Positions 23,800 through 41,660 of a stretch of DNA of 64,000 nucleotides are shown in pieces. The DNA lies in assembly GCA_018814405.1 (NCBI GenBank), contig JAHIZO010000004.1:1-64000 (forward strand). The letters run 5' to 3'. Every line of letters starts with the position of its first letter. Position 1 is the stretch's first letter. This stretch comes from Gammaproteobacteria bacterium (GTDB taxonomy: Bacteria > Pseudomonadota > Gammaproteobacteria > Burkholderiales > Gallionellaceae). The notes beneath the pieces were generated by a model, which was not told where the DNA came from, searched no databases, and was given only the letters and a program-made list of their open reading frames with translations. The position numbers and the translations under genes were made by a program.

Positions 23800-23875
23800 G
23801 GGTCGGTAGCTCAGCCGGTAGAGCAGCGGACTTTTAATCCGTTGGTCCCGAGTTCGAATCTCGGCCGACCCACCA
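23800..23875 (+). tRNA. tRNA-Lys (anticodon TTT)
   Basis: The 76 bases fold as a cloverleaf: acceptor GGGTCGG/CCGACCC, D-arm GCTC/GAGC, anticodon loop CTTTTAA with TTT at 23833-23835, T-loop TTCGAAT and an encoded CCA. It is the first gene after a perfect promoter. Confidence 0.98.
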
Positions 23876-23889
23876 GTTTTTGTATTACC

Positions 23890-23965
23890 GCCGCTTTAGC
23901 TCAGTTGGTAGAGCAACCGCCTTGTAAGCGGTAGGTCGTCAGTTCGAATCCGACAAGCGGCACCA
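23890..23965 (+). tRNA. tRNA-Thr (anticodon TGT)
   Basis: The 76 bases fold as a cloverleaf: acceptor GCCGCTT/AAGCGGC, D-arm GCTC/GAGC, anticodon loop CTTGTAA with TGT at 23923-23925, T-loop TTCGAAT and encoded CCA. It shares the transcript of tRNA-Lys and ends just before a terminator. Confidence 0.98.
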
Positions 23966-24019: not shown

Positions 24020-25327
24020 TCAGGTTGTGCCGAACTTGGTATCCACCATCACGCCGATCTGCTTCAGGAAAGGTGTTGGCAAGGTACCACCAGCGCACAC
24101 GATGATGCCATCGTTCTTGATCTCCGCTTCCTCGTCGCCGAATTTGATCACTGCCGTATCCTGATTTATCTCTTTGACGCCAGACTTCAGATATATCTTC
24201 AATTTGCCAGCTTCGGACATGGCTTTTAGTTTGTCGCGGTTCTTTGGTTTCGCACCGCCGAATGCCTTACCGAACTCATCACCGCGTGCGAGCAGAGATA
24301 CGTTAGTGCCTTGCTCTTCAGCAACTGCCATGGCGGCTTCCACCGCGCTATCACCACCGCCGACCACGATCACATGCATGTTGCGATATTGTTCGGGGTC
24401 GATCAGGCGATAGACCACTTTCGGCAGCTCTTCGCCGGGCACGCCGAGCTTGCGCGGCGTGCCACGTCGGCCGATGGCCAGCAGGACTGCGCGTGTTTTG
24501 TATTCTTCCTTGCTGGTCTTGACGATGAAGCCATTGTCGGTCGGTGTCACATTCTCCATGCGCTCGTTGTAATTCAGTTTGATGCCGGTCTTTTCGATGA
24601 TGCCCAACCACCATTCCAGTAGGCGTTCTTTGCTGACTTCCTTGAAGTGCATCTCGCCGACGACTGGCAGCTTGACTGGCGCGGTCATCGCGACCTTGTT
24701 GCGCGGATACTGGAAGATGGCACCACCCAGTGAGCTTTCTTGCTCTATGACGAGGTAGCGAAGCTTGTGCTGGATAGCGCCCAGTGCCGCTCCCATACCC
24801 GCTGGGCCGGCACCAACGATGATGACGTCATAATCATTGTTGCTGCCTTTTAGCTTGGCGATGGAATCCATCGCCTGCGAACCTTGGCTGGCTGACTTGC
24901 GGATCAAGCCCATTCCTCCCAGTTCGCCGGCGATGAACAGTCCTTTGACGTTGGTCTCGAAATTTGGATCAACTTGCGGGATGTCCATGCCGCGCTTTTC
25001 AGTGCCAAATACCAAGGTGATCGCATCGTGCGGGCAAGATGCGGCACAGGCGCCGTGACCGATACAGTGGGTGGGGTTGATGAGCACCGCCTTGCCCTTG
25101 ATCATGCCTATGGCACCTTCCGGACAGGCTTTGATGCAGCTGCCTGAACCCAAACATAAGCGCGGATCGATCACAGGGTGAAGAGAGGAGGGCTCAGTCA
25201 AACCTTGGGTGATCGCCTCTTTCATTTGTTCAGTGGCGCTCGTTTCTTTCTTTTTTCTGCTGCCCAGATAGAAGAACATGATGATGATCAATGGGATCAG
25301 GTAAACGGATAGATCGATGATGTCCAT
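24020..25327 (-). CDS. Membrane-anchored ferredoxin/FAD/NAD(P) oxidoreductase
   Basis: A 435-residue protein: N-terminal helix (about 5-21), a two-cluster ferredoxin region (about 54-103), a GLFIAGELGG segment (about 129-138), then a thioredoxin-reductase-like unit with FAD loop VGAGPAGMGAA (about 171) and nucleotide loop VVGGGDSAVEAAMA (about 325). The cluster motifs are C58-x2-S-x2-C64-x3-C68-P and C88-x2-H-x2-C94-x3-C98-P: in each, the second Cys is replaced, by Ser and by His. [3Fe-4S] or His-ligated clusters are therefore likely. It is divergent from the cytochrome operon and could pass electrons between NAD(P)H and the membrane cytochrome. The direction is unknown. Confidence 0.85.
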   Translation of the reverse strand: MDIIDLSVYLIPLIIIMFFYLGSRKKKETSATEQMKEAITQGLTEPSSLHPVIDPRLCLGSGSCIKACPEGAIGMIKGKAVLINPTHCIGHGACAASCPHDAITLVFGTEKRGMDIPQVDPNFETNVKGLFIAGELGGMGLIRKSASQGSQAMDSIAKLKGSNNDYDVIIVGAGPAGMGAALGAIQHKLRYLVIEQESSLGGAIFQYPRNKVAMTAPVKLPVVGEMHFKEVSKERLLEWWLGIIEKTGIKLNYNERMENVTPTDNGFIVKTSKEEYKTRAVLLAIGRRGTPRKLGVPGEELPKVVYRLIDPEQYRNMHVIVVGGGDSAVEAAMAVAEEQGTNVSLLARGDEFGKAFGGAKPKNRDKLKAMSEAGKLKIYLKSGVKEINQDTAVIKFGDEEAEIKNDGIIVCAGGTLPTPFLKQIGVMVDTKFGTT

Positions 25328-25378
25328 AGCTTGTCGTCTTTGAGTTGTTGAATGGGGTGCGCCACTGGTCTGAATGAC

Positions 25379-25410
25379 TTGGCCGCCTGTCGGACTATTT
25401 CATATATAAA
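25379..25410 (+). promoter_or_regulatory. Possible promoter of the cytochrome operon
   Basis: TTGGCC (25379-25384) and the overlapping hexamers TATATA/TATAAA (25403-25410) lie in the 209-base divergent region with a spacer of 18-20 bases, giving a leader of about 120 bases. The match is moderate and could also serve the opposite strand. Nothing else in 25328-25536 is recognisable. Confidence 0.4.
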
Positions 25411-25536
25411 GCGAACTTTATTGTACAAAGCCTTGTCGCAGGCAGCGGCATTCTAGGGTTGTCGCGTAATTAAGACAAATTTATTCAGACAGGTTCAGTG
25501 AACGCAGTTAAAATTTGCGGGGCTTGAGGGAAGCTT

Positions 25537-26448
25537 TTGGATTTGGAAACTATGAGAACAAAAAAACAATCAGAACACCTGATGTGGATGATCTTCATCG
25601 GCATCGTCGGCGTGATCACTATTGCCGGCTACTTCGTCGTTTATCCACAGACTTATTATAAGCCGGGTGAGGAGTTGTTCGATTTTGGATACAACCTAGG
25701 GCTGGCCGGCGGCATTATGATGCTGTTGCTGTTGCTGTATCCCCTTCGTAAGCGTTGGTCCCTGCTGGAGAATGTTGGCTTCTTGCCGACCTGGTTCAAA
25801 TGGCACATGGTGCTGGGCATCATGGGGCCGCTGTTCATCATCTTCCATTCCACCTATCACGTTTATATTCCCTTCATCCATCCGACTGGGTCGATCAATG
25901 CGGCGGTGGCGATGTACTGCATGCTGCTCGTTTCGGGTAGCGGTACTTTTGGGCGTTTCTTCTACACCAAGATCCACCACGGTCTGTATGGCCGTCAGGC
26001 AACGGTGAACGAATTGCGTGCTCAGATGGAGCAGACTGGGGATATCAAGTCGATGTTCGGCTTTGCGCCGAATGTCGAGCAGCAACTTCAGGCATTTCAC
26101 GATATGGCGGAGAAATATGCCAAGGAGACTGGCTACGGTTTTCTTAGTTTTGCAAAGATGGGCATCCGATCGGCAATACTGTCCCGCCGTTTGCCTGTCG
26201 AGTTGCATCAGGTGATGCGTGCCCAAGGGGCGGAGAAGCACTTTAGTGCGGATCAGAACAAAGGCATGGAGAAACTGTTCGAGGAATACAAGGAAAAGAT
26301 CACTTCCTACTTGCATGCTGTCCGTGATGCCGCCCAGTTCCATACTTACGAGCGCCTGTTTTCCTGGTGGCACATCTTCCATATCCCGCTGGTGTTCATG
26401 ATGGTGTTCAGCGCCTTCTATCACGTCTATGCGGTCCACGCTTACTGA
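25537..26448 (+). CDS. Inner-membrane b-type cytochrome, ferric-reductase-like
   Basis: A 303-residue membrane protein with about five helices (about 17-36, 52-70, 88-112, 120-137 and 277-300) and a soluble helical loop (about 150-275). His90 and His104 lie in one helix and His282 and His296 in another. Both pairs have 14-residue spacing, the pattern by which ferric-reductase/NOX-type proteins hold two stacked haems b across the membrane. It has no flavin domain of its own. The TTG at 25537 has GAGGG six bases upstream; an ATG at 25552 is the alternative. Being first in the cytochrome operon, it probably links the cytoplasm or quinone pool to the periplasmic haems. Confidence 0.75.
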   Translation: MDLETMRTKKQSEHLMWMIFIGIVGVITIAGYFVVYPQTYYKPGEELFDFGYNLGLAGGIMMLLLLLYPLRKRWSLLENVGFLPTWFKWHMVLGIMGPLFIIFHSTYHVYIPFIHPTGSINAAVAMYCMLLVSGSGTFGRFFYTKIHHGLYGRQATVNELRAQMEQTGDIKSMFGFAPNVEQQLQAFHDMAEKYAKETGYGFLSFAKMGIRSAILSRRLPVELHQVMRAQGAEKHFSADQNKGMEKLFEEYKEKITSYLHAVRDAAQFHTYERLFSWWHIFHIPLVFMMVFSAFYHVYAVHAY

Positions 26449-26465
26449 TTGAATTGATACCGACT

Positions 26466-28286
26466 ATGCTGCTACGTACCTTAGCCCTCATCTTCTTCCT
26501 GTTCGCGCTGCCCATGCAGGCGAACGCCAACAAACTGCTGATGCCCGGCGATGTCATCAAGGGGCACGCCAAGGAAGAGGAGAAGTGCGAGCTTTGCCAT
26601 AAGAAGTTCGACAAGAAAGCGCAGAATCGTCTGTGTATGGACTGTCACAAGGATGTGGGCAAGGATGTTGACGAGAAGAAGGGCCACCATGGCCGTATCG
26701 ATACAACAAAGGATTGCAAGGAATGTCACGCGGAACACAAAGGACGTGATTTCAAAGCAGCTGAATTCGATGAGAAGAAATTCGATCACAAGCTGACTGA
26801 TTTTGAGCTTAAGGGCGGGCACCTCGTCAACAAAAAGCAGGAACAGGTCAAGTGCGAGAGCTGTCACAAGGCCGGTAAGAAGTTCCGCGAGGCACCGCAG
26901 CTTTGCTTCAGCTGCCACAAGAAAGATGACAAACACAAAGGCGGTCTGGGTGAGGATTGCGGAAAGTGTCACGTAGACAAAGATTGGAAGACTACCGACT
27001 TTGATCACGACAAGACCAAGTTCAAGCTGGAAGGCAAACACATCGATGTGAAGTGTTTGAAGTGCCACATCGACCACAAGTACAAAGATACACCGATGGC
27101 TTGCGTGTCCTGTCACAAGAAAGATGACGACAAGGCTCACAACGGCAAGCTGGGTAAGAAGTGTGAGACTTGCCATACGGCCAAGGACTGGAAGAAGACC
27201 AAATTCGACCACGATAAGACCAAGTTCAAATTGTTAGGCAAGCACGATGAAGTGAAGTGCGACAAGTGCCACATCAACAAGAAATACAAAGGCACGCCGA
27301 CGAAGTGTAACGAGTGCCACAAGAAGGATGACGACAAGGCCCACAAGGGCAAGTTCGGTCCCAAGTGCGAGACTTGCCACACCGAGAAAGAGTGGAAGGA
27401 CATCAAGTTCGATCACGACAAGGAGACCAAATTCGATCTGCTCGGTAAGCACAAGAAGACCAAGTGCACGGATTGCCATAAGGGCGACCTGTACAAAGAC
27501 AAGTTGAAGATGACTTGCGTCTCCTGTCACAAAAAGGACGACGACAAGGCGCACAAGGGAAATTTCGGCATCAAGTGCGAAAGCTGTCACGTAGCGGACG
27601 ACTGGAAGGACATCAAGTTCGATCACGACAAGAAGACGAAATTCCCATTGCTGGGCAAGCACAAGTCGCCTTCACCGCTGAAGTGCGAGAAGTGTCACAA
27701 GGGCGACCTGTACAAAGACAAGCTACAGAAAGATTGCATCAGCTGCCACCAGAAGGATGATGACAAGTCGCACAAAGGCCAAGAAGGCAAGAAGTGCGAG
27801 ACTTGCCACGTAGAGGACGATTGGAAGAAGACAGACAAGTTCAACCACAATCGCATGTCCACCTTCCCATTGTTGGGACGGCACGCGCTGGTCGCTTGCA
27901 AGAAATGCCACGAAAAACCGACCTTCAAGGATGCCAAGTCGGACTGCTGGTCATGTCATGAGAAAGACGATGAGGATGTCCATCGCCGCCGGCTGGGAAC
28001 CGAATGCCAAGTTTGCCACTCTACGCGCTCGTGGGCGGCATGGGACTTCGATCACAACAAGACAGACTTCAAGCTGGATGGGCCGCACAAGAAGACCGCC
28101 AACAAGTGCTATGCCTGCCACTCAAAACCGATGGACAAGAAGGTGGTAGCACCAACGGCATGCGGCAGTTGTCACGAACGTGATGATGTGCACAACGGTA
28201 ACTTTGGTGATCGTTGCGAGCGCTGTCATGAGGGTAATGATTGGAAAACGGTAAAGATGGGTGTAGTCGTGCCACAGAAGAAATAG
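26466..28286 (+). CDS. 24-haem c-type cytochrome
   Basis: A 606-residue exported protein (signal peptide MLLRTLALIFFLFALPMQANA) with 24 CxxCH sites, one per 25 residues. They form about eight imperfect repeats of three haems. A typical unit runs FDHDKTKFKLLGKH..CxxCH..CxxCHKKDDDKAHKGKFG..CETCH..DW. The chain is extremely Lys/Asp-rich, so it is soluble. Repeats suggest growth by duplication into a long haem wire. The ATG at 26466 starts a good signal peptide; a longer reading into the previous gene has none. It is likely the periplasmic or membrane-spanning part of the conduit encoded with the porin gene downstream. Confidence 0.93.
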   Translation: MLLRTLALIFFLFALPMQANANKLLMPGDVIKGHAKEEEKCELCHKKFDKKAQNRLCMDCHKDVGKDVDEKKGHHGRIDTTKDCKECHAEHKGRDFKAAEFDEKKFDHKLTDFELKGGHLVNKKQEQVKCESCHKAGKKFREAPQLCFSCHKKDDKHKGGLGEDCGKCHVDKDWKTTDFDHDKTKFKLEGKHIDVKCLKCHIDHKYKDTPMACVSCHKKDDDKAHNGKLGKKCETCHTAKDWKKTKFDHDKTKFKLLGKHDEVKCDKCHINKKYKGTPTKCNECHKKDDDKAHKGKFGPKCETCHTEKEWKDIKFDHDKETKFDLLGKHKKTKCTDCHKGDLYKDKLKMTCVSCHKKDDDKAHKGNFGIKCESCHVADDWKDIKFDHDKKTKFPLLGKHKSPSPLKCEKCHKGDLYKDKLQKDCISCHQKDDDKSHKGQEGKKCETCHVEDDWKKTDKFNHNRMSTFPLLGRHALVACKKCHEKPTFKDAKSDCWSCHEKDDEDVHRRRLGTECQVCHSTRSWAAWDFDHNKTDFKLDGPHKKTANKCYACHSKPMDKKVVAPTACGSCHERDDVHNGNFGDRCERCHEGNDWKTVKMGVVVPQKK

Positions 28287-28364
28287 TAGAAAAAGTCAAG
28301 TTTGCCAACAACATAAGTTGAGGCAGAATTATCGAATAGCTAGTGAACTATCGAGGAGGTTGTC

Positions 28365-29567
28365 ATGGAGAGAAGATCAGGTTTTATCGGTGCAATGTTC
28401 GCCGTGTTGTTGGCAGTGTTGTCGCTGCAGGCAGATGCTGCCCAGCAGATCGGGCGCGATTTCAATCACATGACCACCGGCTTCACCTTGACCGGAGGAC
28501 ACGCGGCGGCGGCATGCGAGACCTGTCACGTAGGTGGTGTGTTCAAGGGGACGCCACGCAACTGCGATGGTTGCCATGCAGTCGGTCAGCGTGTGGTAGC
28601 TACGCCCAAGAACGACAAGCACATCGTGACCGATGCACCATGCGAGAGCTGCCACTTCAATACAGCTACTTGGCTGGGTGCGCGCTATAACCATGGCTCC
28701 GCTGTGCCGGGACAATGCCGCAGCTGCCACAACGGGCGACAGGCATCTGCCAAAGCGCCTAGCCATAGCACGGGTAGTAAGGCGACAAAATCCTGCGATA
28801 GCTGTCACCGCACATTTGCGTGGTTCCCCGCAAGCTGGAATCACGTGGGCGTGGCTCCCGGAAGCTGCGTGACTTGTCATGATGGTGCTACTGCTATCGG
28901 TAAGTCGGCGAGCCATACTACGGTCGCCAAAGCCACTTATGCCTGTGATGAATGCCATAGCTTCGTAGGCTGGACACCCGCCAGATACAAACACAACACG
29001 GCAGCGGCATGTTCTAGCTGCCACAATACAACTGTTGCAGTCGGCAAGCCGGTGAGTCATGGAGCGGCTACCATCAAGGGGCAGAACGAATGCAGTGATT
29101 GCCATACCAATGTCGCTTGGTTACCCGGCACCTATAAACATACGAGTGCAGCAGCATGTTCTTCCTGCCACGATGGCGTGAAGGCAGTTGGAAAAAGCTC
29201 GGGTCACATCGCGACGACTGCAGAGTGCAATCAGTGTCATACCACCACCACTACTTGGCTGGGGGCATTGGGTGCGAAACCTGCAAAACACATTCCATAT
29301 GCGAATGCGAGTGAACCATGCACTTCCTGCCATATAGGTACCAGCGTTAAGCGTGGCACTGCGCTGCATGTACCTTATCTGGCCGGCATCGCCTGTTATA
29401 CCTGCCATGGCAGCAACACCGCCTATTCGGGCCAAGGGCAAAAAACCGAGCGTTGGCCGAATTTCCATGAGAGCAGCAAGAACCCTTCTGCGACAGACTG
29501 TTCTTCCAGTAACTGTCATAAACCCGGATCGAATGGTAAGGGCGCCTTGTATAGCGTTTGGGATTGA
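28365..29567 (+). CDS. Multihaem c-type cytochrome (13 CxxCH plus one CxxxxCH)
   Basis: A 400-residue exported protein (signal peptide ending near ADA) with 13 CxxCH motifs and a C-terminal CSSSNCH (CX4CH), a spacing known for some unusual haem sites. Repeats of about 60 residues combine CxxCH, an aromatic W-x(2-3)-Y/W and a distal H (WLGARYNHG, WFPASWNHVG, WTPARYKH, WLPGTYKH). It is rich in Ser, Thr, Ala and Gly, unlike the Lys/Asp-rich partner, which would suit a surface-exposed cytochrome. No lipobox is present. GAGGAGG precedes the ATG. It lies between the 24-haem protein and the porin. Confidence 0.92.
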   Translation: MERRSGFIGAMFAVLLAVLSLQADAAQQIGRDFNHMTTGFTLTGGHAAAACETCHVGGVFKGTPRNCDGCHAVGQRVVATPKNDKHIVTDAPCESCHFNTATWLGARYNHGSAVPGQCRSCHNGRQASAKAPSHSTGSKATKSCDSCHRTFAWFPASWNHVGVAPGSCVTCHDGATAIGKSASHTTVAKATYACDECHSFVGWTPARYKHNTAAACSSCHNTTVAVGKPVSHGAATIKGQNECSDCHTNVAWLPGTYKHTSAAACSSCHDGVKAVGKSSGHIATTAECNQCHTTTTTWLGALGAKPAKHIPYANASEPCTSCHIGTSVKRGTALHVPYLAGIACYTCHGSNTAYSGQGQKTERWPNFHESSKNPSATDCSSSNCHKPGSNGKGALYSVWD

Positions 29568-29575
29568 TATCGCAT

Positions 29576-29605
29576 GATCCGTGCAAGCTTACGCGTGCAC
29601 GGATC
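29576..29605 (+). other. Perfect hairpin between cytochrome and porin genes
   Basis: GATCCGTGCA (29576-29585) pairs fully with TGCACGGATC (29596-29605) around a 10-base loop. No T-run follows, so it is more likely an mRNA-stability or processing element than a terminator. It could set the ratio of cytochrome to porin. Confidence 0.6.
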
Positions 29606-29653
29606 AATGTTTAAGCTGGAACGACAATAAAACAGATAATTCGGGAGTAGAGC

Positions 29654-31789
29654 ATGAACCAGACACTTAAACGATGTCTTTTGGCGCTAACTTTGTTGTG
29701 GGGAGCGAGTAGTGGCGTTGCCTCTGCCCAGCCACTGGATGAAGTGACGCTTGAATACCAGACCGACGGTATCGTTGCGACGATCAGCATGACGGCTCCC
29801 GTGCGTTACATACGCCACTTTCCGGCAACTAACGGTAAGACGCTAGAGATCTTCTATGAGCGGGTACAGGGCGCGACTGTGGATGAGAAGTGGGTGGATA
29901 ACGAGACGCGTAATTCGCCACCTTCCAGCCTGATCCCTGCATTCACGGTGACGACGCGTGACCAGCAGACCAGGCCGCGTCTGGTGATCGAGTTCGAGCG
30001 CAATGCCAACTACTCGGTGTCGCCGGGCAAGGATCAGCGTAGCCTGTTGATCACGATACGTCCTGATCGTTCGACTGCAGAAGTCGCCTTGCCTTTCTTG
30101 CCTGTTGTGGGTGCATTGCGGCCGACACCGGATGATGCCAATCTGGCTGGGAACAACAAACAGGCTTATGAGTTGATGGGGCAGGCGCGTACTGCCTTGT
30201 CTGTCAAGAAGAACGAAGACGCGGTTGCTGTATTGAACAAGCTGTTGATGTTGCCGCCTAATGATTACACGGAAGATGCGCAAGAGTGGGTGGGTGTGGC
30301 GCGTGAACGTGCAGGCCAGTTCGATAAAGCGAAGACTGAGTACGATCTATATCTGAACCTCTATCCGCAAGGTGCCGGGGTGCCGCGTGTAGTACAACGT
30401 CTCGCGGGCTTGTCGGGTACTTCCAGTAAACCGGGTATCGTGGAAGTGAGCGAGAAGAAACAGGCAGCGCGCTGGTCAACATTCGGCGGAATCTCCGGAC
30501 GCTACTATTTTGGATCCAGCAAGGTCGATTCAACCACCGTATTCAACGGCGTGAGCGATACGCAATCCACGTCTTTCACCGACCAGTCCATGCTGATAAC
30601 GACCGAGGACGTGTCGGCGCGCTATATGAGTGACGAGTTCGACGGGCGCGTGGTGTTTCGTGGCAACAACACCATGAACTTCCTGGCCGATCAGAGTAGC
30701 CAGAATCGTTTGCACTCGTTGTACGGTGAGATCAAGGGGCGCAAGCAGGATTACCTGCTGCGCGTAGGTCGCCAGTCATCCAGTGGAGCAGGGGTGTTGG
30801 GCCGTTTCGATGGACTGGCTGGTTCGTATGGAGATGCTTCAGATTGGCGAGTGAATGTGACGACCGGCAAACTGGCGGATTACAGCGATAGTACTACCCC
30901 GTCGTTCGTCGGAGCCAGTGTCGATAGTGGTGATTTCACTGTCTATGGCATCAATCAGGCGGTCGATGGTTTGCAGGATCGCCGCGCAATCGGCGGCGAA
31001 TGGCGCTATTTCAAGGACAAGCATTCAGCCTTCGCTCTGGTTGATTACGACATTCTCTTCAAGGCGCTGAATGCAGCTCAGGTGATGGGCACGGTAGGTA
31101 TGTATGATGCGTCCTTCAACTTCATGCTGGATCACCGCAAGACGCCATCATTGAGTATCAGATCGGCGTTGTATGGTGCAACGACATCTTCGATAAGTGT
31201 GTTGCAGCAGGCTATGTCCACCAGTGCATTGCGTCAATTGGCTTTGGAGCGAACGGCCACGACCAATATGGCACAGATCGGTGTAACCAAGCCTATGAGT
31301 GACAAGTGGCAGGTGGGCGGAGATGTGAGATTGACGAACACAACAGCAACGGCGGCAAGCAGTGTTGTCGGAGTGCCTGAGGCCGGTGTACTGGATGCTA
31401 ATCCTGGCCGGGGAACGGAAAAGAGTGTGACCGGGCAATTGATCGGCAGCGGTCTGTACAAGGCAGGAGACATCTGGTCGTTCAGCGCTACTTTGAATAC
31501 CAGCAGCAATGTCAAAGGCAATTCCTTCTTTGTGTATAACCACACGGATATGCAATATGGCCAATACGTTTGGGGGCTGGATAGTTCAGTGCAACTTTAC
31601 AAGCAGACAGACCAGTTCAATGCCGTGACGACCCGCTTCTCACCAATGGTCCGCGGTACATACCGGTTGAAGGAGCAACTTACCTTCGATGCTGACCTGG
31701 GTTTTGAAAGCACAAAGAGCGAAGGCGCCAATGTGACGACAAAGATCACTCGCTTCTTTGGTTCTGCTGGTCTGCGCTGGGATTTTTAA
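29654..31789 (+). CDS. TPR plus beta-barrel outer-membrane protein (porin of the conduit)
   Basis: A 711-residue exported protein (signal peptide ending ASA). After a periplasmic beta region (about 27-155) come TPR-like helices (about 165-255, including AVAVLNKLLMLPPNDYTEDA and FDKAKTEYDLYLNLYP). From about 280 to the end there are many amphipathic strands ending in GSAGLRWDF, the terminal Phe expected of barrels inserted by BAM. By position it should hold a multihaem cytochrome in the outer membrane, as porins do in MtrB/PioB-type conduits, though the sequence is not obviously MtrB-like. The TPR part may dock the periplasmic cytochrome. Confidence 0.82.
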   Translation: MNQTLKRCLLALTLLWGASSGVASAQPLDEVTLEYQTDGIVATISMTAPVRYIRHFPATNGKTLEIFYERVQGATVDEKWVDNETRNSPPSSLIPAFTVTTRDQQTRPRLVIEFERNANYSVSPGKDQRSLLITIRPDRSTAEVALPFLPVVGALRPTPDDANLAGNNKQAYELMGQARTALSVKKNEDAVAVLNKLLMLPPNDYTEDAQEWVGVARERAGQFDKAKTEYDLYLNLYPQGAGVPRVVQRLAGLSGTSSKPGIVEVSEKKQAARWSTFGGISGRYYFGSSKVDSTTVFNGVSDTQSTSFTDQSMLITTEDVSARYMSDEFDGRVVFRGNNTMNFLADQSSQNRLHSLYGEIKGRKQDYLLRVGRQSSSGAGVLGRFDGLAGSYGDASDWRVNVTTGKLADYSDSTTPSFVGASVDSGDFTVYGINQAVDGLQDRRAIGGEWRYFKDKHSAFALVDYDILFKALNAAQVMGTVGMYDASFNFMLDHRKTPSLSIRSALYGATTSSISVLQQAMSTSALRQLALERTATTNMAQIGVTKPMSDKWQVGGDVRLTNTTATAASSVVGVPEAGVLDANPGRGTEKSVTGQLIGSGLYKAGDIWSFSATLNTSSNVKGNSFFVYNHTDMQYGQYVWGLDSSVQLYKQTDQFNAVTTRFSPMVRGTYRLKEQLTFDADLGFESTKSEGANVTTKITRFFGSAGLRWDF

Positions 31790-31813: not shown

Positions 31814-31843
31814 GGCTGCCGGAGTGATCCGGCAGCCTTTTTT
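31814..31843 (+). terminator. Intrinsic terminator of the cytochrome operon
   Basis: GGCTGCCGGA, loop GTGA and TCCGGCAGCC form a 10-bp stem followed by TTTTTT. It separates the electron-transfer operon from sucCD. Confidence 0.93.
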
Positions 31844-35240: not shown

Positions 35241-37763
35241 ATGAGAAAAACATCATTTTGGAAGGCAGACTGGTTCACTGCATTGGTGGTGGTGTTTGTC
35301 TTTCTGTTCAGCGCCAACACCGATCTGATCCAAAGTTTGGAGCGCAAAGCCTATGACTGGGGGGTGTTGGCTTCTGCACGCCAAGCGAGCGATAAGATCG
35401 TTGTCATTGCGATCGATGATGAGAGCATTGCCAATCTCGGACGCTGGCCTTGGCCACGCGAGATTCAAGGCCAGTTGTTGGATGTGCTGGCAGAAGGCAA
35501 GCCCAAGGTGGTCGGACAGACGGCTCTATTCTTTGAGCCGCAGGTTGATGCAGGTCTGGATTACATCCTGAATATTGCAGCCGTACTCGAGCAGACCAAG
35601 CTGGCAGAGACGAATCCCGAGCAGTGGCTCGAACTGCAAGGTTTGATGCAGGAAGCGTTACTGCATCTGGATAACGACCAGAAGCTGGCAGAAAGTATGG
35701 GTCATATCCATAACGTTCTGCTGGGCATGTATTTCGAATTGGGCGAACCGCAAGGCAATCCGGATGCGCCCCTGCCTGACTACGTACTTAAAAACAATCT
35801 ACTGAGCGTGCAGGGCGGGGCTGAAGCGGCTTTTCCTATCCCATCGTTCAATGCGCTGGTGCCTATTCCAATGTTGGGCCAGCCGGCACTTGCGTTGGGT
35901 CACTTGAATGTGACGCCCGATGTGGATGGGGCGATCCGCACCGAGCCACTGGTGATAAGTTATTACGACCAGTTCTATCCATCCTTGTCGCTGATGCTTG
36001 CCGCAAAGAGTCTGAATCTCGGCCCGCAGGACATTCAGGTCACCTTGGGTGAAGGCGTGCGAGTGGGCAACCTTAAGATCACGACCGATTCTGCTCTGCG
36101 TATGAATACGTATTTTTACGCGAATCAAGAAGGACGCCCCGCTTTTCAGGTGGACTCCTTCTATGATGTTTTGACCGGCAAGATCCCAGCAGAAAAATAC
36201 CGCGACAAGATCGTACTGATCGGTGCCACTGCAGCAGGGGTCGGTTCGTCACAAGTTACGCCCGTGTCGGCGGCAACACCTCCGGTTGTGACCTTGGCGC
36301 ATTCGGTGTCCAGTATTTTGAAGCAGGACTTTTTCATCGTACCTTCATGGGGCTTGTGGGCCGAGATCGGCGTGTTCTCTCTGATTGCGATCTATTTGAT
36401 CGTATTGTTGCCCCGTCTTGGTGCGGGACTGGGGGCGGCGATCACCGGCGGGATGTTCATTGCCTTGCTTGGTGTGCACTTTGCATTGATGACTACGCAA
36501 GCGATGTGGCTACAGCTGATGCTGCCCGCAGCCCTGCTGTTGGTAGGCCATCTGCTGCTGACCACTAAACGCTTCCTAGTGACAGAGAAGGGCAAAGAAA
36601 AGTCGGATGCCGATTCGGCTGAGAGCAATCGCATGTTGGGCCTAGCCTTTCAGGGGCAGGGCCAACTGGATATCGCGTTCGACAAATTCCGCAAGGTGCC
36701 GCTGGACGACAGTTTGATGGATGTGTTGTACAACCTCGGGTTGGATTTTGAGCGCAAGCGCCAGTTCAACAAGGCTGAAGCTGTATTCAAATATATGTCC
36801 GAATACAATCCGAAGTTCCGCGATTTGGAACAGCGCATGAGCCAGGCCAAGACGATGTCGGAAACCATCATCCTCGGCGGCAGTTCTGGTCGCGGTAATG
36901 ACAGCACGATGAAGCTCGATCAGGCGGGCATCTCCAAGCCGATGTTGGGCCGTTATCAGATTGATAAAGAATTGGGTAAAGGGGCGATGGGCGTGGTCTA
37001 TTTGGGTAAGGATCCCAAGATCAGCCGTGTCGTCGCGATCAAGACCATGGCGTTGGCGCAGGAGTTTGAGCCCGATGAACTGGAAGATGTGAAAGCGCGC
37101 TTCTTCCGTGAAGCTGAAACCGCGGGTCGTCTGAATCATCCCAACATCGTCACCATGTACGATGCAGGCGAGGAACATGACCTAGCGTATATCGCGATGG
37201 AATTCCTCAAGGGCAAGGACTTGGTGTCCTATACCAAGCCCGATGCATTGCTGCCTTTGCCACAAGTACTGTCAATCGTAGCGCGTGTGGCGGATGCATT
37301 GGGCTATGCCCACGGTTTGAATGTGGTGCACCGTGACATCAAACCAGCCAACATCATGTACGACAGCGAGAGTGATACGGTGAAGGTCACGGACTTCGGT
37401 ATCGCGCGCATCACTGACTCTTCGAAGACCAAGACCGGAATGGTCTTGGGCACGCCTTCATATATGTCACCCGAGCAATTGTCTGGAGCCAAGATCGAGG
37501 GCCATTCCGATCTGTTCTCTTTAGGTGTGAGTCTGTATCAATTGGCCTGTGGTAAGCTCCCGTTCGAGGGGGATTCCATGGCGCAATTGATGTTCAAGAT
37601 CGCCAATGAGGCACCCAAAGACATCCTGAGTATCAATGCGGACATTCCCCCGTGTGTAGTTGCCATCATCAATAAAGCTTTGGCCAAGAAAGTGGAAGAG
37701 CGCTATGAGAGCGGTGCCGCGATGGCAGATGCCATCCGCCAGTGTGCAGCCTCGTTGAAGTGA
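35241..37763 (+). CDS. CHASE2-sensor Ser/Thr protein kinase
   Basis: An 840-residue membrane kinase. One helix (about 10-28) and an extracytoplasmic CHASE2 domain (about 30-345) are followed by three helices (about 370-440), a TPR-like cytoplasmic linker (about 460-545) and a Hanks-type kinase (about 570-835). The kinase has the GKGAMGVVYLG loop, AIKTM Lys, HRDIKPANIMYD, TDFGIARI and GTPSYMSPEQL, all intact, so it should be active. It lacks PASTA repeats. It heads a run of signalling genes with its likely antagonist (PP2C) directly downstream. The CHASE2 ligand is not known. Confidence 0.93.
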   Translation: MRKTSFWKADWFTALVVVFVFLFSANTDLIQSLERKAYDWGVLASARQASDKIVVIAIDDESIANLGRWPWPREIQGQLLDVLAEGKPKVVGQTALFFEPQVDAGLDYILNIAAVLEQTKLAETNPEQWLELQGLMQEALLHLDNDQKLAESMGHIHNVLLGMYFELGEPQGNPDAPLPDYVLKNNLLSVQGGAEAAFPIPSFNALVPIPMLGQPALALGHLNVTPDVDGAIRTEPLVISYYDQFYPSLSLMLAAKSLNLGPQDIQVTLGEGVRVGNLKITTDSALRMNTYFYANQEGRPAFQVDSFYDVLTGKIPAEKYRDKIVLIGATAAGVGSSQVTPVSAATPPVVTLAHSVSSILKQDFFIVPSWGLWAEIGVFSLIAIYLIVLLPRLGAGLGAAITGGMFIALLGVHFALMTTQAMWLQLMLPAALLLVGHLLLTTKRFLVTEKGKEKSDADSAESNRMLGLAFQGQGQLDIAFDKFRKVPLDDSLMDVLYNLGLDFERKRQFNKAEAVFKYMSEYNPKFRDLEQRMSQAKTMSETIILGGSSGRGNDSTMKLDQAGISKPMLGRYQIDKELGKGAMGVVYLGKDPKISRVVAIKTMALAQEFEPDELEDVKARFFREAETAGRLNHPNIVTMYDAGEEHDLAYIAMEFLKGKDLVSYTKPDALLPLPQVLSIVARVADALGYAHGLNVVHRDIKPANIMYDSESDTVKVTDFGIARITDSSKTKTGMVLGTPSYMSPEQLSGAKIEGHSDLFSLGVSLYQLACGKLPFEGDSMAQLMFKIANEAPKDILSINADIPPCVVAIINKALAKKVEERYESGAAMADAIRQCAASLK

Positions 37764-39428: not shown

Positions 39429-41660
39429 ATGAAGAAGCATGCCCTGTTGATCATGTTGGGCATGTTTGCTGTGTTGCTGTTTCTTGGCGATGCGGCGGGG
39501 TTCTATCGTCTCGGCTTTGTCCAGTATGGCGATGCCCAGCTATATGATTATCGCTTGCGGCTTTCGTTGCCGAACAAAGCAGATGATCGCATCGTGATCC
39601 TTGATATAGACGAGAAGAGCTTAAAACAGGAAGGCCGTTGGCCTTGGAGCAGGGACAAGATGGCGAGACTGATGGACTCGCTTTTCGATGAGTACGGTGT
39701 TGCTGCGGTAGGCTTCGACGTCGTATTTGCTGAGCCGGACAACAGTTCCGGTCTTAACGTTCTGCAAGCTTTGGGAGCAAAGCAATTTCGTGATGTCGAA
39801 CAATTTCAAACCGTACTGAATCAGATCAAACCCTCCTTGCAATACGATGCCTTGTTTGCGGAAAAGTTGAAAGGGCGCAAGGTAGTGCTTGGATACTATT
39901 TCAGCAACAGCGAAGGGGGTAAGTCGGCCAGCAAATCTGGGGCTTTGCCTGAAGCGGTATTCTCTGCCGACCAGTTCCGCGGACGAACTGTGGGATTGGC
40001 ATCCTGGGACGGATTTGGTGCGAACCTCAGCGAGCTGCAGTCGAGTGCTGCATCCGCGGGTCACTTCAATCCTCTGGTGGATTTTGACGGTGTGGTGCGA
40101 AGAATCCCAATGCTGGTTGAACATGAAGGCCGGATTTACGAATCCCTATCGCTCGCTGTCGTGCGTAGCGTGCTGGATATGCCGAAGCTGACACCGGGTT
40201 TCGCGGGTGAACAAAACAAAGGGTATGGAGGGCTGGAATGGTTGTCGGTGGAGTCTGCTCAAGGCGGATTGACCATACCGGTTGACGCCGAGCTCAGTGC
40301 CTTGATCCCGTATCGCGGCCTGCGCAATACCTTCAAGTACATTTCGGTGACGGATGTGTTGCACGGCAGAACGGAGCTGCCTGCATTGCAAAACAAGATC
40401 GTGTTGGTGGGGACCTCAGCCCCGGGGCTGATGGATATGCGGAGTACGCCAGTTGGAGAGGTCTATCCTGGGGTGGAGGTGCACGCGAACATGATCAGCG
40501 GCATCCTCAATCAGGATATCAAGCAGCATCCGCCCTATATGCTCGGCGCCAATGTGGTCCTGATGTTGTTCATCGGCATCTGTTTAAGCGCCTTGCTTCC
40601 GTTGCTGAGCCCGATACGCGGCATGTTGCTGTCTTTGATATTCCTTTCGGGTGATGTCGCGCTCAATCTTGCGCTCTGGAATTATGCCGATCTCGCCATG
40701 CCGATGGCGGGCGGGATATTGATCATCCTTACTCTGTTCGCGTTGAATATGAGCTTTGGTTACTTTGTGGAATCTCGGGCCAAACGCCAGATCACCGGCT
40801 TGTTCGGGCAATATGTTCCAGGTGAATTGGTGGATGAGATGGCGAAGCGCCCGGAGAGTGTTTCGATGGAAGGCGATAGTCGGGAGATGACTATCCTTTT
40901 CTCGGACGTGCGCAGCTTCACCACTATTTCCGAAGGATTGGATCCCAAGGAACTTTCGCTGTTAATGAATGAGTTCCTTACTCCGTTGTCGCGCGTGATC
41001 TATAAGCAGCGCGGCACGATTGATAAATACATGGGCGACTGTATCATGGCATTCTGGGGTGCGCCGCTGCCGGACTTGGAGCATGCCCAGCATGCTGTGC
41101 TAGCGGGTATGGAGATGCAGCGTGCTTTGAATGATTTGCAGCCTCAATTCAAGGCGCGTGGCTGGCCTGAGATACATATCGGTGTCGGGGTCAATACAGG
41201 TCGCGTCAGTGTCGGCAACATGGGCTCCGAGGTGCGAGTGGCTTATACGGTGATGGGTGACGCGGTGAACCTCGCCTCGCGATTGGAAGGGATCACCAAG
41301 GAGTACGGCGTCTTGATGTTGGTGGGTGAGTCCACCAAACAAGCCACACCGCAGATCGTCTACCGTGAGGTGGATCTGGTGCGAGTCAAAGGCAAGGAGC
41401 AGCCTGTCGCCATCTTCGAGCCGCATGGCCTGAGTGGGGAGGTCGAAAAATCGAAACTCGACGAGATCAAATTGTTCCATCAGGCATTACGAACCTATCG
41501 CAAGCAGGATTGGGACAAAGCAGACTTGGAACTGCTAAGTTTGCAAAACATGTCTCCAGACTGCAAGTTGTATCGCGTCTACGCAGAGCGTGTGACTTTT
41601 TACCGAAACAATCCACCCGGCGAGGACTGGGATGGCGTGTTCACTTTCAAAACGAAATGA
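39429..41660 (+). CDS. CHASE2-sensor class III adenylate cyclase
   Basis: A 743-residue membrane cyclase. After a first helix, a CHASE2 domain (about 35-345) and three helices (about 368-440), the catalytic domain (about 480-665) has ILFSDVRSFTTIS and YMGDCIMAFWG, giving both metal Asp residues. Lys in GTIDKYMGD and Asp in VMGDAVNLASRLE are the residues that select ATP over GTP, so the product should be cAMP. A helical tail follows. Its sensor type is the same as that of the kinase in the same gene run, suggesting one signal feeding two outputs. Confidence 0.93.
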   Translation: MKKHALLIMLGMFAVLLFLGDAAGFYRLGFVQYGDAQLYDYRLRLSLPNKADDRIVILDIDEKSLKQEGRWPWSRDKMARLMDSLFDEYGVAAVGFDVVFAEPDNSSGLNVLQALGAKQFRDVEQFQTVLNQIKPSLQYDALFAEKLKGRKVVLGYYFSNSEGGKSASKSGALPEAVFSADQFRGRTVGLASWDGFGANLSELQSSAASAGHFNPLVDFDGVVRRIPMLVEHEGRIYESLSLAVVRSVLDMPKLTPGFAGEQNKGYGGLEWLSVESAQGGLTIPVDAELSALIPYRGLRNTFKYISVTDVLHGRTELPALQNKIVLVGTSAPGLMDMRSTPVGEVYPGVEVHANMISGILNQDIKQHPPYMLGANVVLMLFIGICLSALLPLLSPIRGMLLSLIFLSGDVALNLALWNYADLAMPMAGGILIILTLFALNMSFGYFVESRAKRQITGLFGQYVPGELVDEMAKRPESVSMEGDSREMTILFSDVRSFTTISEGLDPKELSLLMNEFLTPLSRVIYKQRGTIDKYMGDCIMAFWGAPLPDLEHAQHAVLAGMEMQRALNDLQPQFKARGWPEIHIGVGVNTGRVSVGNMGSEVRVAYTVMGDAVNLASRLEGITKEYGVLMLVGESTKQATPQIVYREVDLVRVKGKEQPVAIFEPHGLSGEVEKSKLDEIKLFHQALRTYRKQDWDKADLELLSLQNMSPDCKLYRVYAERVTFYRNNPPGEDWDGVFTFKTK

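Follow-up and report, generated by a model that had tools for sequence, protein, structure and literature searches.

The window analysed in this study is a stretch of 64,000 nucleotides (positions 1 to 64,000 of contig JAHIZO010000004.1, assembly GCA_018814405.1) from a member of the Gallionellaceae. At 24020-31789 it carries five neighbouring genes, namely, one for an iron-sulfur (Fe-S) flavoprotein (FLP) on the minus strand and four on the plus strand, for an inner-membrane protein (IMP), two multihaem cytochromes (MHCp and MHCe), and a porin (POR). By its sequence features, the plus-strand group belongs to the porin-cytochrome cluster PCC3, of which FLP was found here to be a near-constant fifth gene. 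The features of the locus, with lengths in amino acids (aa) and Pfam matches where available, are as follows:

24020..25327, minus strand: FLP, predicted membrane-anchored Fe-S flavoprotein, 435 aa (Pyr_redox_3, E 7.7e-46; Fer4_10, E 2.3e-11)
25328..25551, no strand: divergent promoter region between FLP and IMP, 224 bp
25552..26448, plus strand: IMP, inner-membrane protein, 298 aa from ATG, with five transmembrane-like regions, two WX3HX13H motifs, and SGTFG
26466..28286, plus strand: MHCp (cytochrome 1), 24-haem, 606 aa, with a signal-peptide-like start and eight triplet units
28365..29567, plus strand: MHCe (cytochrome 2), 14-haem, 400 aa, with 13 CXXCH and one CX4CH and a signal-peptide-like start
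29499..29519, plus strand: terminal CX4CH haem motif of MHCe, recurring among family relatives
29654..31789, plus strand: POR, porin with a TPR segment, 711 aa, with a C-terminal Phe
31814..31843, plus strand: hairpin followed by a T-run, a likely operon terminator read by eye

In the open reading frame (ORF) list of the window, the five genes lie exactly where an earlier reading of this DNA from its letters alone (here referred to as the sequence-only reading) had placed them, and its arrangement of a four-gene operon and one divergent gene was borne out. The intergenic gaps are short (17 bp between IMP and MHCp, 78 bp between MHCp and MHCe, and 86 bp between MHCe and the porin) and, together with the hairpin and T-run behind the porin, they make a single IMP-MHCp-MHCe-porin operon likely. 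That reading had also recognised the outline of PCC3, and every sequence feature that was tested agrees with it. In the portions of the PCC3 literature consulted (He et al. 2017, PMC5566968; Gallionellaceae pangenome, PMC10734462), the same inner-membrane protein, periplasmic cytochromes with 21, 24, or 27 haems, extracellular cytochromes with 10-35 haems, and a porin are described in the same order. In the window, an IMP of the expected kind (about 300 aa, five predicted transmembrane helices, two WX3HX13H, and SGXXG) is followed by a cytochrome with 24 CXXCH, a second one with 14 haem motifs, and the porin, i.e., in the order inner-membrane protein, predicted periplasmic cytochrome, putatively extracellular cytochrome, putative porin. 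The combination that marks MtrAB/MtoAB, a DmsE/MtrA-type decahaem cytochrome with an MtrB-type porin, was not seen in the cluster by Pfam and NCBIfam matches. As judged from these features, the four genes add a new member to the published PCC3 kind, whose function is putative.

The fifth gene has received little attention, as the sequence-only reading had remarked. Neither "flavoprotein" nor "flavo" occurs in the main texts of six PCC3 papers (PMC5566968, PMC10734462, PMC12442390, PMC12016527, PMC8788666, and PMC13386937), a search confined to these main texts. In PMC5566968, FAD likewise occurs 0 times and "flavin" 4 times, as electron shuttles or in references where the context is visible. 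It is possible that an unlabelled FLP neighbour stands in a published figure or table. No paper was found for the presumed FLP locus tag of Sideroxydans lithotrophicus ES-1, a tag guessed from those of the neighbouring genes in the genome taken to be ES-1 (G124). Whereas the main texts searched thus contain no flavoprotein, FLP proved to be a near-constant partner of the cluster, and this observation is new here.

The partnership was followed across three genome samples, for which the co-occurrence counts ignore kinship. In the family sample of 158 genomes, FLP was counted when of the orthologue type (at least 53% identity, fragments included), leaving out 17 weaker rows (31-36% identity, E 1e-31 to 1e-36). 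IMP was present in 64 genomes, FLP in 67, both in 63, and neither in 90 (Fisher p 5e-38, kinship uncorrected). Within 5 kb of IMP lay 57 of the 70 FLP rows, all 57 of them divergent. Four genomes contained FLP only; in three (G010, G091, and G150) the contig ends on the side where IMP is expected, and the fourth (G143) is a 69% complete draft with FLP alone. MHCp adjoined IMP in 29 of 31 family loci with IMP. The order sample of 300 genomes yielded 17 with FLP and the identical 17 with IMP, distributed over 10 of 134 genera and including 12 outside the family; 16 of the 17 pairs were divergent and separated by about 370 bp at most, the remaining one being 8.4 kb apart on one strand. Among 398 genomes of the phylum sample, six had FLP (E up to 1e-60), and these were the only six with a strong IMP (E below 1e-75); three of them were shared with the order sample, and in two FLP and IMP lay on different contigs. 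Another 12 phylum-level genomes gave weak IMP-like matches (E 1e-16 to 4e-11), none with FLP. In the order and phylum searches, scoring was limited to the top 4-5 FLP candidates of each genome, so some may have been missed. That FLP is a chance neighbour was rejected, since the co-occurrence persists in the two genomes that have the genes on different contigs. Very probably, FLP is a functional part of PCC3.

The host genome itself contains one IMP and one FLP (family genome search). Solitary IMP paralogues (about 59% identical) without an adjoining multihaem cytochrome were seen in two genomes of the genus (L049 and L072), and FLP copies without any PCC3 gene in the stretch in three (L059, L060, and L063). 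No clear palindrome that might serve as a regulator site was visible by eye in the FLP-IMP gap in an alignment of eight sequences.

FLP combines parts that are arranged in an unusual order:

25007..25180, minus strand: ferredoxin part, residues about 50-107, with C58-x5-C64-x3-C68P and C88-I-G-H91-G-x-C94-x3-C98P
24839..24994, minus strand: FAD-binding segment, residues 112-163, which is C-terminal in thioredoxin reductase (TrxR) and YpdA and here stands before the flavin core
24023..24838, minus strand: FAD and NAD(P) core, residues 164-435, without a CXXC disulfide

Ahead of these parts, residues 3-21 form a transmembrane-like stretch, and a hydrophobic N-terminus is present in 123 of 126 relative rows. 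The window FLP departs from the 2[4Fe-4S] ferredoxin pattern (two CXXCXXCXXXCP), as the second Cys is replaced in both motifs. In an alignment of 127 rows, in which some genes are present twice from two collections, residue 91 is His in all 127 and Cys in none, and residue 61 is S in 86, A in 25, C in 12, and G in 3, with one gap. Child et al. 2018 (PMC6237146) report that ferredoxins carrying replacements of this kind bind [3Fe-4S] clusters whose redox properties are altered. The two clusters predicted for FLP would be non-canonical, one of them probably His-ligated. A CXXC in the flavin part was found in 0 of the 127 rows, for which reason FLP was rejected as a thioredoxin reductase; the GGGD motif is kept among its relatives.

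FLP shares FAD and NAD(P) domains with the bacillithiol disulfide reductase YpdA and with thioredoxin reductase (7a76, 7a7b, and 3f8p), but differs from them in the FAD segment moved to the front, in the missing CXXC, and in the added ferredoxin part and membrane anchor. With phmmer, the core (residues 167-433) aligns with residues 5-274 of a YpdA-type chain, and chain residues 281-297 match FLP residues 121-137, i.e., before the core, a stretch that is not significant alone. When residues 112-163 were moved behind the core and the protein was rescored with phmmer against solved chains, the bits rose from 106.4 to 114.4 (7a76), 103.8 to 112.4 (7a7b), 61.0 to 67.3 (3f8p), 41.6 to 52.1 (7jyp), and 38.8 to 48.2 (2q0k). 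Among the 23 chains common to both searches, the permuted order raised the score in 14 (by 1.9-10.5 bits) and left one unchanged. The segment alone, compared by hhalign with 30 Gallionellaceae TrxRs, matched TrxR positions 275-288 with a score of 25.4, which 100 column shuffles (at most 21.3) did not reach, and in 59 of 61 cases a plain TrxR model scored the permuted order above a version with the segment shuffled. Several results speak against a permutation: the score fell in 8 of the 23 solved chains (by 0.1-0.8 bits), 14 of the 100 shuffled segments also landed in the same TrxR region, one of 100 shuffles reached the observed 115.9 when the segment was joined to the core, and with the plain, narrow TrxR model the permuted order beat the core-only form in just 35 of 61 cases. 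On balance, the fold of FLP is best read as that of YpdA/thioredoxin reductase in circularly permuted form, for which the support is good but not final. A literature search retrieved no report of a circularly permuted TrxR-type Fe-S flavoprotein, and the matches it gave look unrelated by title. If true, such a fold with unusual Fe-S ligands would be an enzyme architecture without a report in that search.

The partner of FLP, IMP, shows five transmembrane-like regions by hydropathy, two WX3HX13H motifs (W81 to H99, with H85/H99, and W273 to H291, with H277/H291), and SGTFG at 130. The listed ORF opens at a TTG 15 bp upstream of the ATG used here, at which position several close relatives start. 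The four motif His are invariant in 42 aligned relatives, and the two motifs suggest a cytochrome b that would hold two b haems. A possible analogy is offered by NADPH oxidase/ferric reductase (PF01794), in which two HX13H pairs for two b haems are likewise combined with a cytoplasmic flavin donor; in contrast to these enzymes, the flavin part is here encoded apart, as a protein that has a different type of fold and carries Fe-S motifs, and a significant Pfam match is lacking. Searching solved structures for kin of IMP gave four weak matches to receptor-cytochrome b562 fusions (best E 0.018), which were taken as chance.

Both cytochromes fall far below the cut-off of the DmsE/MtrA model, and the host genome gave no MtrA/MtoA-type decahaem above the cut-off, with two weak matches that both fall in MHCe itself. 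The 24-haem count of the sequence-only reading for MHCp was confirmed (24 CXXCH and exactly 48 Cys), and its "13/14-haem" cytochrome resolves to 14, since the 28 Cys and 28 His of MHCe give two of each per haem for 13 CXXCH plus one CX4CH. In 2000 shuffles of each protein, the maximum number of CXXCH was 3 for MHCp and 2 for MHCe, so the haem counts are not due to chance. The CX4CH recurs in 23 of 30 family MHCe relatives longer than 290 aa, in 20 no more than about 21 residues before the end and in three elsewhere; no lipobox was seen in the MHCe start. The eight triplet units of MHCp are 63-89 aa each, with a mean pairwise identity of 48%. Its relatives have 21, 24, or 27 haems in all 27 family proteins longer than 500 aa, and in the named loci (described below) the haem count of MHCp-type proteins above 550 bits is a multiple of three (18 to 33) in 50 of 51, the single exception having 20 haems; some of these proteins may be cut by contig ends. 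Three-haem modules chained on one polypeptide are likewise described for Geobacter GSU1996 (12 haems) and GSU2210 (27 haems) in the consulted part of PMC10138318; MHCp differs from these in being part of a porin cluster, and the triheme nanowire model TIGR04257 does not match it at E up to 0.1.

The porin has a signal-peptide-like start and the C-terminal Phe, and 2 of 25 relatives match OMP_b-brl. The TPR label given by the sequence-only reading receives support below the cut-off in the window protein itself (22.9 bits vs. a Pfam cut-off of 35), and 19 of the 25 relatives match TPR_9 at E up to 0.01. That reading had also called the porin unlike MtrB, with which the Pfam and NCBIfam matches agree: they include no MtrB/PioB model, and a kinship with MtrB was rejected. 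A porin with multihaem cytochromes is what the cluster has in common with MtrCAB/MtoAB, from which it is set apart by this porin and by its cytochromes.

Every hop has a candidate carrier: from NAD(P)H to FAD, through two Fe-S sites and two b haems, and then over the 24 and the 14 haems to the outside. In the mechanism proposed here, the N-terminal helix of FLP would anchor the protein on the cytoplasmic side of the inner membrane. FLP would exchange electrons with NAD(P)H via FAD, from where they would pass to the two Fe-S clusters with unusual ligands and on to the cytoplasmic-side haem of IMP. The b haems of IMP (H85/H277 and H99/H291) would carry the electrons across the membrane as in a split NADPH-oxidase/ferric-reductase, after which they may run along the 24-haem periplasmic wire of MHCp with its eight triplet modules, and take the last leg to the outside via the TPR-porin and the 14-haem MHCe. 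Outward acceptors might be an Fe(III) crust, humics, or others, with the conduit acting as a redox overflow or as a reductive access to minerals. That PCC3 forms such a conduit across the envelope, made of five parts, linked to NAD(P)H, and ending in FLP on the cytoplasmic side, is considered slightly more probable than not, leaving direction aside. A direct electron exchange between FLP and IMP is regarded as fairly probable and, given such an exchange, a net outward flow would be fairly probable as well. Outward flow from NAD(P)H is energetically downhill, whereas inward flow to NAD(P)+ is uphill from Fe(II) and directed against the membrane potential.

The reverse direction, in which low-potential solid donors such as Fe(0), green rust, or clay-bound Fe(II) would reduce NAD(P)+ via FLP and thereby spare reverse electron transport, makes use of the same candidate carriers. 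Many Gallionellaceae are autotrophs, which would suit this direction, as would the growth of strain CL21 with Fe(0) in the part of the published data consulted. Given the general thermodynamics of ordinary Fe(II) just described, and as none of the five genes resembles an ion pump in the Pfam and NCBIfam matches, inward five-part flow is held to be very unlikely.

The published model, proposed by He et al. 2017 according to the accessible part of PMC5566968, assigns PCC3 the uptake of electrons from outside Fe(II) or mineral, which IMP would pass to the quinone pool. On this reading, FLP would have a regulatory role or provide a side input. The bis-HX13H pattern of IMP, which is that of a cytochrome b, and the many carriers among Gallionellaceae agree with this model, as does a rise of the inner-membrane protein of one PCC3 copy in CL21 along with iron-oxidising ability, as given in the portion of the data available. 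In the corresponding portion for Sideroxydans lithotrophicus ES-1, however, both PCC3 clusters go down on Fe(II) vs. thiosulfate, and the listed PCC3 proteins, as read from the table, show no clear rise on magnetite vs. Fe-citrate. Nor does the model account for the almost one-to-one association of IMP with a flavoprotein of NAD(P)H type. Relatives of FLP are present in methylotrophs, Rhodoferax, Nitrospira, and Emticicia, most of which are not known to be iron oxidisers. The published expression data are mixed and a role of PCC3 in Fe(II) oxidation is not supported; the quinone-linked model is seen as unlikely. Concerning the proposal of the sequence-only reading that electrons move between extracellular Fe(II) or a mineral and the cell, trans-envelope transfer stays plausible, while the Fe(II) role is not supported, given the ES-1 decrease, the missing clear rise on magnetite, and the presence of FLP in groups mostly not known as iron oxidisers.

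Cytochrome-maturation-like genes beside or near FLP in Nitrospira loci, in one alphaproteobacterium, and in Emticicia would also suit another role, in which FLP would serve in maturation, as a reductase keeping haem or cysteines in the reduced state while the very large cytochromes are assembled. By eye, a CcmI-like gene was recognised immediately ahead of FLP in L188 and L196 (both Nitrospira loci) and a CcmF-like gene in L194, where it separates IMP from FLP; in Emticicia, ccsA stands two genes before FLP. Such neighbours were seen in these loci only, the other neighbours of the 80 best loci not having been annotated individually, whereas FLP tracks IMP across the genome samples and has no CXXC in its flavin part. 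A maturation role is hence judged highly improbable.

Besides these neighbours and the CL21 rise, further observations weigh against a five-part conduit. IMP finds no Pfam support as a ferric reductase: it reached PF01794 with just E 0.02 and 15.2 bits (cut-off 28), and the match was present in one of 42 IMP members. In the family sample, 23 IMP rows had no FLP within 5 kb, 13 of them in genomes where another IMP row has FLP, eight in genomes with FLP elsewhere, and two in G145, which has no FLP; it is therefore possible that not every conduit has an FLP docked to it. Some FLPs are solitary, and in 10 of the 80 best FLP loci the DNA analysed shows neither IMP nor porin nor a large cytochrome. 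Tentatively, and with somewhat less than even confidence, PCC3 may be not primarily a quinone-linked Fe(II) oxidase but an NAD(P)H oxidoreductase that spans the envelope with five core parts; it would include a new, permuted flavoenzyme and link the NAD(P)H pool directly to outside solids. PCC3 is carried by many iron oxidisers and is read in metagenomes as a putative iron oxidase; the constant NAD(P)H-type partner offers an entry or exit point for electrons at the cytoplasm that can be put to the test, and would change this reading.

The flavoenzyme occurs in Proteobacteria and Nitrospira and on a plasmid of a Bacteroidota member. When species genomes were scanned for FLP, at least 593 stretches were obtained, at least 569 of them encoding relatives, of which the best 80 were analysed as named loci. 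By title, 18 of these are Gallionella/Sideroxydans/Gallionellaceae, nine Methylotenera and kin, six Rhodoferax/Comamonadaceae, and four Nitrospira-type, with many titled by phylum, class, or order name only. IMP (above 100 bits) is present in 61 of the 80, a cytochrome of at least eight haems in 58, a porin match at E 1e-8 in 36 (34 over 200 bits), and at least one of the three in 70. Among the 61 IMP-bearing loci, FLP and IMP are divergent within 1.5 kb in 54 and on the same strand in five (L159, L176, L181, L182, and L206); in L188 and L194 they are 4.7-6.3 kb apart. In a midpoint-rooted FLP tree, the window FLP groups with Sideroxydans and Gallionellaceae rows, and the four Nitrospira-type FLPs nest in Proteobacteria beside Methylophilaceae (supports 99/94), which points to their acquisition by lateral transfer. 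Of these Nitrospira-type loci (L188, L196, L198, and L202), L188 has IMP, a 17-haem cytochrome, and a porin match, and L198 a 33-haem MHCp-type cytochrome. On plasmid pEMTOL02 of Emticicia oligotrophica (Bacteroidota; L247, 9998-21796), ccsA, IMP (hhalign probability 99.7), FLP, a 23-haem and a 40-haem cytochrome, and a barrel-like protein follow each other on one strand. The barrel-like protein has no Pfam match and was rejected as a PCC3 porin homologue, as no kinship was shown; FLP, IMP, and two large cytochromes thus stand together in another phylum despite a different last protein.

Other observations concern the surroundings and some relatives. In the window, the cluster is flanked by tRNA-Lys and tRNA-Thr genes (23800-23965, directly left of FLP) and by a gene pair that reads by eye like sucCD. 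Two CHASE2 proteins are encoded at 35241-37763 and 39429-41660, of which one carries a protein-kinase domain and the other a guanylate/adenylate cyclase domain. A TonB-like gene was seen by eye near FLP in L173 and L185, the former also having ExbB/ExbD-like genes. Second cytochromes with 58, 58, 75, and 58 CXXCH stand beside the 24-haem one in L134, L135, L136, and L140, respectively; by title, L136 belongs to the Azonexaceae and the other three to beta- or gammaproteobacteria.

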